DNA from: an uncultured Bryobacterales bacterium
Lineage (GTDB): Bacteria; Acidobacteriota; Terriglobia; Bryobacterales; UBA6623
Direction: 5' to 3'
DNA length: 64,000 nt
NCBI GenBank assembly: GCA_958295955.1
Contig: OY282420.1
Location: 1,502,435-1,566,434, forward strand
This document shows, one piece after another, positions 1,349 to 4,557 of the stretch. The notes beneath the pieces are model-generated. The model was not told where the DNA came from. It ran no database searches and saw nothing but the letters and a program-made list of their open reading frames with translations. Within the stretch, counting starts at the first letter, position 1, and each line of letters opens with the position of its first letter. The translations under genes were made by a program, and so were the position numbers.

Positions 1349-3178
1349 ATGTCTCCTCAAGAGATCGAGGCGGCGGTCGCGAAGATCCGCGACCGGGTGC
1401 AAGAGCGGTATCGGAAGACCGTGGAAGATCTCGACGGCTTTGCCTTGCCGCCGCTCGACCCGCTCGGTCATGCCCGTGACGCCGCGGAGGGAAAAGCCGC
1501 CGCGATCGGCCGCGTGAATCCCCGCCGCGGCGGCCCGGTGAACAACGCAATCCAGTACGCCAAGCGCCTCGTCGCGCGTTGCCTGAATTGGTTCGTGCGC
1601 GATCAGATCGATTACAACCGGGCCGTCGTCGTCTATATGGATCGCGTGATCGAGACCTTGATCGAGCAGAATTACAATCTGCTGCGCGTCGCCCGCGGAG
1701 TGGTCGATGCGCAGCGGAGCGCAGCGGAACTCAACGAGGGACAGCAGGACATTCGCCGGGAACTAACAGAGCTTAACGAAACACTGGCCGATGCGCAGCG
1801 GAGCATAGCGGAACTCAACGAGGACCGGCAGGACATTCGCCGGGAACTGGCAGAGCTTAACGAAACCCAACGGGACATGCTCAAGCACTGGCGCAACTGG
1901 CGTCCGGAGTGGGAAAAACGCCTGACCGACAACGAGATCAAGTTTTTGCACATGCTCCGCGAAATCGAGGGCGCCGCCCGCCAACGCGAGGAGACCGCTC
2001 AAGCCGCCGCCGCCAAGATGCGCCAGGAGTTGACCGACAGCGAGATCAAGTTTTTGCACATGCTCCGCGAAATCGAGGGCGCCGCCCACCAACGCGAGGA
2101 GGCCGCTCAAGCCGCCGCCGCCAAGATGCGCCAGGAGTTGACCGACAACGAGATCAAGTTTTTGCACATGCTCCGCGAAATCGAGGGCGCCGCCCGCCAA
2201 CGCGAGGAGACCGCTCAAGCCGCCGCCGCCAAGATGCGCCAGGAGCTGACCGACAACGAGATCAAGTTCGAGGACGCCGCCCGCCGACACGAGGAGACCG
2301 CTCAAGCCGCCGCCGCCAAGATGCACCAGGAGTATTCCGCCCTGCTGGCGCAATCGACTGACGCGCTGCAAAAGCAGTTCTGGGCCGACATGGAGAGGCA
2401 ACGAACAGAGCATGAGAAGTCGATACACACGGAATTGCGCTTGATCCGACAGCGCAGCAGCCGCACGGCAACCGCAACGGCTCCGCCGCCCCCGGCGCCC
2501 GCCGCCGACGGAACAGCCGCGGCGATCCTCCCGTTCGACTATGGACGCTTTCAAGAGCGGTTTCGGGGCTCCGAGGAGTACGTTGCCAAAAGCCAGTCGC
2601 AGTACCTGGAAATCTGCCGGGGATTGGCCCCGATTGTGGATCTCGGCTGCGGGCGCGGCGAACTCCTCGAGCTGTTCCAAGCCGAGGGCGTCGAGTGCCT
2701 TGGGGTGGACTCCGACCCGGATGCGGCCGGCGCGTGTCGGGACAAGGGACTCAATGCCGAAGCAGGCGATCTTTTCGAGTTTCTGCGCCAGCAGGAAGAC
2801 GGCAGCTTGGGGGCGATCTTCTCCGCGCACGTCGTCGAGCACTTGCCGCCGCTCCGGCTGCCCGAGCTCGTCGAGCTTGCCGCGGCAAAGTTGAAACCCG
2901 CAGGAATCCTCGCGCTCGAAACGCCCAATCCGGCCTGCCTGGCGATTTTCAGCGGAGACTTTTACCTGGACCCCACGCACCGGCGGCCGGCGCCGGCGCA
3001 GCAACTCCGGTTTTATATGGAAGAAAGCGGCTTGGGCGGAGTCAAGGTGCGGGAATTGAACCCGGCGTACGAAACGATTCCCGAACTGGCGGGCCTCCGC
3101 GAAGATCCGGCGGCCGGGCCGTTCGTCGAAAAATTCTTCGGCGGACTCGACTATGTAATTTGGGGCAAGAAATTATGA
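1349..3178 (+). CDS. Coiled-coil repeat protein with C-terminal SAM-dependent methyltransferase domain
   Basis: This 609-residue protein has three parts. Residues 1-115 form an N-terminal region of unknown fold. Residues about 120-330 are a predicted coiled coil made of two kinds of tandem repeat: two of 28 residues (DAQRS-AELNE), then four of 36 residues (LTDNEIKFLHMLREIEGAA), the last one heptad shorter. Residues about 395-609 are a class I methyltransferase with motif I VDLGCGRGELLE, the acidic strand end GVDSD and a post-motif HVVEHLP. Such domains beside coiled coils occur in surface polysaccharide gene sets, where they may cap or size chains; that role is inference here. It overlaps the next gene by 4 bases (ATGA). 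A TTG at 1346 is a possible alternative start. Confidence 0.8.
   Translation: MSPQEIEAAVAKIRDRVQERYRKTVEDLDGFALPPLDPLGHARDAAEGKAAAIGRVNPRRGGPVNNAIQYAKRLVARCLNWFVRDQIDYNRAVVVYMDRVIETLIEQNYNLLRVARGVVDAQRSAAELNEGQQDIRRELTELNETLADAQRSIAELNEDRQDIRRELAELNETQRDMLKHWRNWRPEWEKRLTDNEIKFLHMLREIEGAARQREETAQAAAAKMRQELTDSEIKFLHMLREIEGAAHQREEAAQAAAAKMRQELTDNEIKFLHMLREIEGAARQREETAQAAAAKMRQELTDNEIKFEDAARRHEETAQAAAAKMHQEYSALLAQSTDALQKQFWADMERQRTEHEKSIHTELRLIRQRSSRTATATAPPPPAPAADGTAAAILPFDYGRFQERFRGSEEYVAKSQSQYLEICRGLAPIVDLGCGRGELLELFQAEGVECLGVDSDPDAAGACRDKGLNAEAGDLFEFLRQQEDGSLGAIFSAHVVEHLPPLRLPELVELAAAKLKPAGILALETPNPACLAIFSGDFYLDPTHRRPAPAQQLRFYMEESGLGGVKVRELNPAYETIPELAGLREDPAAGPFVEKFFGGLDYVIWGKKL
1706..1873 (+). 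repeat. Two tandem 84-bp coding repeats
   Basis: Two 84-base units begin at 1706 and 1790, each coding 28 residues (four heptads) that start DAQRS and end AELNET. They differ at a handful of bases and lie inside the coiled coil of the first methyltransferase. Confidence 0.85.
1922..2332 (+). repeat. Four tandem 108-bp coding repeats, last one shortened
   Basis: Units begin at 1922, 2030, 2138 and 2246. The first three are 108 bases and nearly identical (1 to 4 differences from the first copy). The fourth lacks 21 bases, exactly one heptad. The 36-residue period fits a mixed heptad/hendecad coiled coil. Near-identity at DNA level suggests recent slippage or recombination. Confidence 0.9.
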
Positions 3179-4557
3179 TCGAGTTCACTGGAGAGCGGGT
3201 GATTCCGGGCCGCGTCCCCGCCGATCTGCTGAACGAGCATCTGGGGCGCTACGCCTTCGCCGAAGCGGCCGTTGCCGGTAAATGCGTTCTCGACGCCGGC
3301 TGCGGCGTCGGCTACGGCTCCGCCCGGCTGGCGGCGCTTGCGGACACGGTATATGCCCTCGACAACGCGGCCGAGGCCGTCCGCAACGGACATGCGGAAT
3401 ACCCCGATGTTCGCTTTATTCGGGGCGACTGCTCGCGGCTCCCCTTTGGAGACAACTCGCTTGACGTCGTCGCCGCCTTCGAGGTGATCGAGCATCTGGA
3501 GGACTGGGAGGCGCTGCTGCGCGAGGCTGCGCGGGTGCTGCGCCCGGCGGGAACGTTCCTGGTATCGACACCGAATCGAATCTACTACGAAGGCTCGCGC
3601 GACGAGCCGAACCCGTTTCACGTCCACGAATTCGACTACGAGGAGTTCCGCGGGGAACTCGCCAAGCACTTCCTCCATCTCACGATTTTTTTCGAGAACC
3701 ACGCCAACGCAATTACCTTCATGCCGGAGGCGGCGGAAGACATCCGCGCCCACATCGAACCGACCGCCGCCGACCCCGCCGCCGCGCATTTCTTTCTGGC
3801 GGCGTGCTCGCATTCGCCAATTTACGATTTGCCGGGTTTTGCGTATCTGCCGCGCGGCGGCAACATCCTGCGCGACCGCGAGCGGCATATCGAGAAGCTC
3901 GAGAACGAGCTTGCGCAAAAAACCCGCTGGCTCAAGGAAACCGCGGCGGAGCTCGACAACCTCGCGCGCATTCATCGAGAAGATCAGCAGCAGGCGCAAC
4001 TCGCGATTGAAGCGCTGGAAGCCGAAAACACGAAAAAAACGCAGTGGGCGGAGGACCTCGAGGAAGAACTCAAGCGCGCGGCCGTGCTGCTGCATGAAGC
4101 GGAATCGCGTGTGCATGAAGCCGAGGCGCGCGCGGCCGTGCTGCTGCATGAAGCGGAATCGCGTGTGCATGAAGCCGAGGCGCGCGCGGCCGTGCTGCTG
4201 CATGAAGCGGAATCGCGTGTGCATGAAGCCGAGGCGCGCGTGACCGAGCGAACCGAATGGGCGCAAGGGCTCGATGCAGAGCTCAAGCGCGCGGTGGAGT
4301 TGCTGGATGAAGCCGAGGCGCGCGTGACCGAGCGAACCGAATGGGCGCAAGGGCTCGATACAGAACTCAAGCGCGCGGCCACGCTGCTGCATGAAGCGGA
4401 ATCGCGCGTGATCGAGCGAACCGAATGGGCGCAGCGGCTCGACCGCGAGGCCGCCGCATACCGCGCGCGGATTGAAGCGATCCGCGCATCCCCGGCCTAT
4501 CGGGCGGCCCGCAGGCTGGGCCTGGCGCCCTCCATCGCGAAAACGTCAAAGGATTAA
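3175..4557 (+). CDS. SAM-dependent methyltransferase with C-terminal repetitive coiled coil
   Basis: This 460-residue protein has the reverse layout of its upstream neighbour. The class I methyltransferase comes first (residues about 1-215; motif I VLDAGCGVGYGSARLA, acidic residue in YALDNA, then FEVIEHLEDW), and a long coiled coil follows (residues about 225-445). The coil contains three exact copies of an 18-residue unit (AAVLLHEAESRVHEAEAR) and copies of a 28-residue unit beginning VTERTEWAQ. The start ATG at 3175 overlaps the previous stop by 4 bases, implying translational coupling; the frame is open further 5' but only as a shadow. A polysaccharide or lipid methylation role is inference. 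Confidence 0.8.
   Translation: MIEFTGERVIPGRVPADLLNEHLGRYAFAEAAVAGKCVLDAGCGVGYGSARLAALADTVYALDNAAEAVRNGHAEYPDVRFIRGDCSRLPFGDNSLDVVAAFEVIEHLEDWEALLREAARVLRPAGTFLVSTPNRIYYEGSRDEPNPFHVHEFDYEEFRGELAKHFLHLTIFFENHANAITFMPEAAEDIRAHIEPTAADPAAAHFFLAACSHSPIYDLPGFAYLPRGGNILRDRERHIEKLENELAQKTRWLKETAAELDNLARIHREDQQQAQLAIEALEAENTKKTQWAEDLEEELKRAAVLLHEAESRVHEAEARAAVLLHEAESRVHEAEARAAVLLHEAESRVHEAEARVTERTEWAQGLDAELKRAVELLDEAEARVTERTEWAQGLDTELKRAATLLHEAESRVIERTEWAQRLDREAAAYRARIEAIRASPAYRAARRLGLAPSIAKTSKD
4078..4239 (+). repeat. Three exact tandem 54-bp coding repeats
   Basis: Copies begin at 4078, 4132 and 4186 and appear identical. Each codes 18 residues of coiled coil in the second methyltransferase. Perfect identity points to very recent amplification. 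Confidence 0.95.
4240..4407 (+). repeat. Two tandem 84-bp coding repeats plus a partial third
   Basis: Units begin at 4240 and 4324, and a third diverges after 4408. Each codes 28 residues, four heptads, opening with VTERTEWAQGLD. The period equals that of the 28-residue repeats in the upstream methyltransferase although the sequence differs. Confidence 0.85.

Follow-up and report, generated by a model that had tools for sequence, protein, structure and literature searches.

Gene B of the window, the whole 64,000-nucleotide stretch of DNA that was analyzed and that comes from a soil-type Bryobacterales bacterium, probably encodes a chain-terminating methyltransferase with a coiled-coil ruler, acting on an ABC-transporter-dependent surface glycan of the lipopolysaccharide O-antigen type. 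The reading draws on the WbdD system of Escherichia coli O9a, in which WbdD caps the O9a chain and only capped chains are exported, via the binding module of Wzt (PMC5082667, PMC11231755, PMC3482155). In WbdD trimers, the capping enzymes sit about 200 Å from WbdA, and insertions in the WbdD coil raise chain length, whereas truncations lower it (PMC5082667). Terminator coils and Wzt proteins bearing a carbohydrate-binding module (CBM) co-occur across systems (PMC11231755).

By analogy, methyl capping, docking, and control of chain length would fall to the gene B protein. Its N-terminal methyltransferase would methylate the nonreducing end of the growing chain, and the methyl cap would halt chain growth; the carbohydrate-binding domain of Wzt would then read the cap, and the chain would be exported through Wzm. 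The C-terminal end of the stalk would be held close to both the membrane and the GT2-GT4 polymerase, so that the stalk would keep the capping site at a fixed distance and its length would set the chain length. The stalk would change in length as units, typically four heptads (28 residues) long, are duplicated in tandem and in frame. In the lineage of the window, gene B would have departed from the Wzm-Wzt-GT operon and become coupled to gene A, which encodes a second coil methyltransferase with the opposite domain order.

Tandem repeats and domain architecture of genes A and B

Gene A (positions 1349 to 3178, forward strand) encodes an N-terminal helical domain (residues 1 to ~110), a coiled coil, and a C-terminal class I SAM methyltransferase, as judged from its open reading frame and Pfam. 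Gene B (3175 to 4557, forward strand) encodes an N-terminal class I SAM methyltransferase, a coiled-coil stalk, and a C-terminal basic/aromatic tail, on the evidence of Pfam, alignment, and a tree. The start of gene B lies inside the stop codon of gene A (ATGA, 3175), resulting in a translational overlap. The mirror order of the domains given in the preliminary description of this DNA is borne out by the positions of the methyltransferase matches, which fall at residues 419 to 562 in A, behind its coil (Methyltransf_23, E=2e-14), and at residues 39 to 129 in B, ahead of its coil (Methyltransf_11, E=1e-22). Pfam and NCBIfam name both proteins only as generic methyltransferases. The catalytic part of B (3175 to 3867, forward strand) was delimited by Pfam and alignment and includes the motifs EFTGERVIPG, DAGCGVGYG, FEVIEHL, STPN, and NPFHVHEF; that of A (2534 to 3175, forward strand) was delimited in the same way and includes GCGRGE (motif I), VEHL, and ETPNP. 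The profile of A matches the methyltransferase of PDB entry 3dli (E=5e-61), and its subfamily differs from that of B. Although the methyltransferase domain is common to A and the 3DLI-type class I SAM methyltransferases, in A it is preceded by an extra N-terminal domain and a coil.

Four tandem arrays were identified in the two genes by TRF (scores of 276 to 664, far above chance), and every one of them is in frame. Gene A contains an 84-bp unit (28 residues, four heptads) in two copies (1706 to 1873, forward strand; 84.5% identity between frame-aligned copies, 90% by TRF) and a 108-bp (36-residue) unit in three full copies (1922 to 2029, 2030 to 2137, and 2138 to 2245, forward strand) with DNA identities of 96 to 99%. 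A fourth unit of the latter array (2246 to 2332, forward strand) is 87 bp long and hence 21 bp, or exactly seven codons, shorter. Gene B contains a 54-bp (18-residue) unit in three identical copies (4078 to 4239, forward strand; 100%) and an 84-bp (28-residue) unit, ERTEWAQGLDxELKRAxxLLxEAExRV, in two full copies (4246 to 4413, 85.7%) and a partial third (4246 to 4455 in all, forward strand). The preliminary description had noted these repeats, which are real and in frame at the positions given here, and had correctly taken one unit to be short by exactly one heptad. Its view that all of the units keep heptad phase holds for the 28-residue units (4 × 7) alone; the 18- and 36-residue units are not multiples of seven, and the stretches that they form have a hydrophobic period of 3.6, compared to 3.50 to 3.52 in the 28-residue stretches.

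Identical 54-bp units are a recognized assembly hazard, but it is extremely unlikely that the repeats are an assembly artifact: the copies in the other arrays carry substitutions, the frame is kept throughout, analogous arrays occur in three relatives, and the window is part of a contig that spans 4.4 Mb in a genome of 4.6 Mb.

An extended coil follows the catalytic domain of B, as indicated by a predicted helix and by the hydrophobic period. AlphaFold predicts the stalk (3871 to 4470, forward strand) as one continuous helix over residues 231 to 437, with pLDDT values of ~82 to 92 over residues 241 to 410 that fall to ~71 to 77 by residue 437 when B is modeled alone, whereas the AF2 model is poor in the methyltransferase part. 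The hydrophobic period of the coil is 3.54, which was matched by none of 300 shuffled sequences. Behind the stalk lies a conserved tail, RIEAIRASPAYRAARRLGLAP (4468 to 4527, forward strand), with the consensus SxWxRLGRxxGLGP in relatives, which is a candidate for the end that docks to the membrane or polymerase. At 1.5 Å per residue and assuming that it is extended, the stalk would measure ~300 Å, compared to ~200 Å for WbdD (PMC5082667).

Gene B orthologues and the glycan export genes

A single close orthologue of B was found in each of 39 of the 41 genomes searched, and B is a single-copy gene of the Bryobacterales; in a tree built on the methyltransferase region, the B of the window falls within the clade of its own family (support, 96/95). 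Each of the 21 genomes examined from the sister family f3 has the orthologue directly 3′ of a gene encoding Wzt with both ABC_tran and the Wzt_C carbohydrate-binding domain (Wzt_C, E=6e-26), an arrangement seen in none of the 20 genomes of families f1 and f2. The gene 3′ of B in f3 encodes a protein of ~780 residues with GT2 and GT4 modules that is polymerase-like and probably serves as the polymerase. It follows B in all of the mapped f3 loci except one (L105, genome G037), where it was not found next door; a broken B was suspected in that genome, but the gene is intact. Glycan genes at homologous loci, which the preliminary description had proposed to look for, are therefore present beside B in f3 in the form of Wzt and GT2-GT4. 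The Wzt-B-GT genes of four f3 loci (L078, L079, L083, and L084) have ParA/ParB and GidA/GidB-like genes as neighbors, which suggests a position probably close to the replication origin.

In f1 and f2, the genome of the window included, all of the loci read have Wzt adjoining GT2-GT4 with no B there, and B is located elsewhere, directly after A wherever A is intact (the genome of the window and G002, G003, G007, and G020, from two families). Of the 41 genomes, 39 have a Wzm orthologue, which adjoins Wzt in f1 and lies elsewhere in f3. The genome of the window has a Wzt with a carbohydrate-binding domain, unlinked to B: Wzm (C1:2493045-2493860), Wzt, and GT2-GT4 are located together at approximately C1:2,493,045-2,497,608, 1 Mb from B, and only 144 bp separate the Wzt and GT matches, leaving no room for B. 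That the B of the window has lost its linkage to the exporter genes counts against the ruler reading.

The comparison with WbdD, the basis of the preliminary description's reading of the locus, covers the proteins of E. coli O9a/O9 (Klebsiella O3) and the methyltransferase-only forms of O8 and Klebsiella O5, which have an N-terminal methyltransferase like that of B. These proteins also have a long C-terminal helical coil and a conserved C-terminal tail, as does B, and are paired with a CBM-bearing Wzt and a polymerase gene with several GT modules, as are the B orthologues. Unlike O9a WbdD, B has no kinase: a Pfam scan of B yielded no kinase domain, and the coil helix begins already at residue 231. 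The WbdD homologue of E. coli O8 is itself methyltransferase only (PMC3482155). WbdD was not among the PDB matches of the B profile at E≤1e-6; no specific sequence kinship was found between the two proteins, whose common ground is the class I methyltransferase fold, and B further differs in having a coil made of recently duplicated units and, in the window, in having no linkage to the exporter genes and being coupled to another coil methyltransferase. Because the domain features and partners were found but the O9a kinase and kinship to WbdD were not, B appears to be of the WbdD type in its working and not WbdD by descent.

Outside the order, B-like proteins are fused to the glycosyltransferase modules. 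MTase-coil-GT2-GT4 fusions are encoded at L175 (1,094 residues) and L177 (1,160 residues), in other families of the phylum, and an MTase-coil-GT4 fusion is encoded at L169 (1,141 residues). In these fusions, the methyltransferase and the GT module sit at opposite ends of the coil, which is the geometry expected of a terminator ruler. The same terminator-coil-GT order is seen in ORF6 of Klebsiella pneumoniae O7 and in WbbB of O12, whereas GT2-GT4 is a separate gene in the Bryobacterales and, in O12, a Kdo transferase acts as the terminator. Unfused B homologues outside the order occur in the arrangements Wzm-Wzt-x-GT-B (L172) and Wzm-Wzt-B (L176). In the former locus, a gene for an 883-residue protein with no Pfam match (L172:13182-15830) separates Wzt from GT2-GT4.

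Identical gene linkage and fusions would be expected if B were a methyltransferase that decorates the glycan internally and whose coil tethers it to the polymerase complex and serves as a spacer or oligomerization rod. This alternative is unlikely, since the C-terminal CBM of the partner Wzt reads a terminal cap in the characterized terminated systems (PMC11231755) and a variable rod joined to a constant enzyme suits a ruler better.

Coil length variation among relatives

Between fixed anchors, the coil of B ranges from 53 to 200 residues, an approximately fourfold span, and that of A ranges from 129 to 289 residues; the window has the longest of both. Among relatives, A coils are 129 to 202 residues long, with one of 270, and B coils are 90 to 143 residues long in the f1 and f2 genomes that have a coil. 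Without the extra repeat copies (36, 36, and 29 residues and 28 residues in A; two of 18 residues and one of 28 residues in B), the coils of the window would be ~160 and ~136 residues long, within the range of the relatives, which indicates that the excess is recent. The repeat count is thus not fixed among relatives, nor is B without a link to polysaccharide genes, as the coils vary and B orthologues adjoin Wzt.

When the B coils of the other genomes were pooled, with the window excluded, their self-identity peaked at a lag of 28 residues (0.173, compared to a mean of 0.10), and the B coils of L064, L065, and L076 have DNA-level arrays of their own with units of 42 or 84 bp. B coils have a quantum of 28 residues that was duplicated independently in other lineages. 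In genus g5 of the window's family (L066, L068, L071, L073, and L074), the B coil is almost absent and Wzm, Wzt, and GT2-GT4 are kept; in the tree, the window's B groups most closely with the g5 proteins (82/59). Since the exporter and GT genes are kept there without a long stalk, a long ruler is not essential.

We consider it possible, but doubtful, that the terminator's ruler is tuned by gain and loss of 28-residue units and that A and B were lengthened together as a paired ruler. If units are gained and lost in this way, the length of the surface glycan would be rapidly evolvable. There is a little less than an even chance that the fresh amplification was instead nonadaptive, a product of lineage-wide in-frame duplication tolerated by coils, with no tuned function of length. 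This alternative concerns the amplification only and would leave room for B as a glycan terminator. In 400 kb of the window's own genome (twenty evenly spaced 20-kb pieces), there are nine tandem array regions, nearly all within open reading frames, whereas 200 kb from each of two relatives, G003 and G006 (400 kb in total), contained none; in addition, the coils of two different genes grew in the one genome. The lineage thus widely duplicates coding units, and the growth of the two coils may not reflect any selection on glycan length. Pointing the other way, coil arrays also arose in the B genes of other lineages, the 28-residue quantum recurs, and the reading frame and coil period are preserved. 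The arrays of the own genome (G000, contig C1; L181, L185, L186, L187, L191, L194, L195, L197, and L091) include NHL-type propellers, 399-bp and 384-bp PPC-like repeats, 33-bp hendecad coil repeats, and a 72-bp unit at 99% identity. L091 (99 to 653) encodes a small membrane-anchored coil protein in which an 11-residue motif, ARIDxxxTELG, is repeated; a block of 120 bp is duplicated there as well.

Coils engineered in enterobacteria have already shown that a ruler can control glycan length. In the literature searched, no report of natural variation in the repeat number of terminator coils was found, which is not proof that none exists. The B orthologues form a natural series of a single terminator whose coil runs from almost nothing to ~200 residues and changes by a quantum of four heptads; for their phylum, the same literature yielded almost nothing on glycan exporters of this kind. 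This series lets the relation of coil length to chain length, and evolution by repeat number, be tested directly.

Gene A and its pairing with gene B

Strong matches to A (E<1e-55) were present in 19 of the 41 genomes searched, the window's own counted, and A was absent or truncated in 22. Its N-terminal domain (1349 to 1678, forward strand) is conserved, with the motif VNPRxGGxxNxxIQxxKxxxARxLxWxVRxQVEFNR in near-invariant alignment columns, and may be a membrane or partner anchor. In two genomes, a piece matching only this domain lies beside B (G009, L064:9996-10259; G005, L067:9272-9682), a candidate remnant or retained anchor peptide. The AlphaFold model of A, from two sequences, had a mean pLDDT of 45 and was unusable.

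The polysaccharide reading of the preliminary description extends to A only weakly. For B, it is well supported by the adjacency to Wzt in f3, the GT fusions, and a coil that varies between genera. In f3, A sits behind LOR/SDH and QueF, and linkage to Wzt or GT genes was not found; membership of A in a glycan operon is unsupported in that family. Some distant relatives of A adjoin GT4, GT2, or Wzy_C genes, and others adjoin ThiG, ROK, or racemase genes. A may thus be loosely tied to glycans, judging from its gene neighbors, and that it is a second glycan-modifying methyltransferase is a guess.

The ATGA overlap, the mirror domain order, the adjacency of A and B in five genomes of two families, and the fact that both coils are longest in the window would also suit a heterocomplex in which mirrored coils space two methyltransferases and joint expansion keeps the coils matched. 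We regard such a complex as quite improbable, because A and B lie apart in f3 and A is missing or truncated in more than half of the genomes, two of which have B with the N-terminal piece only. A match between the presence of A and the length of the B coil, apparent in f1 (no full A, short coil), was rejected; it is confounded by kinship and is absent in f3.

The sole named-genome locus found for A is that of a Bryobacter MAG (L044), whose A is 41% identical to that of the window and has the same LOR/SDH-QueF neighbors as in f3. Given these shared neighbors, f3 is probably the Bryobacteraceae, and the window probably belongs to another family of the same order. Directly 5′ of A in the window, on the same strand, are a mazG gene and a GNAT gene (18 to 1342), with gaps that are overlapping or a few bases long; given this close spacing, A and B may be cotranscribed with them.
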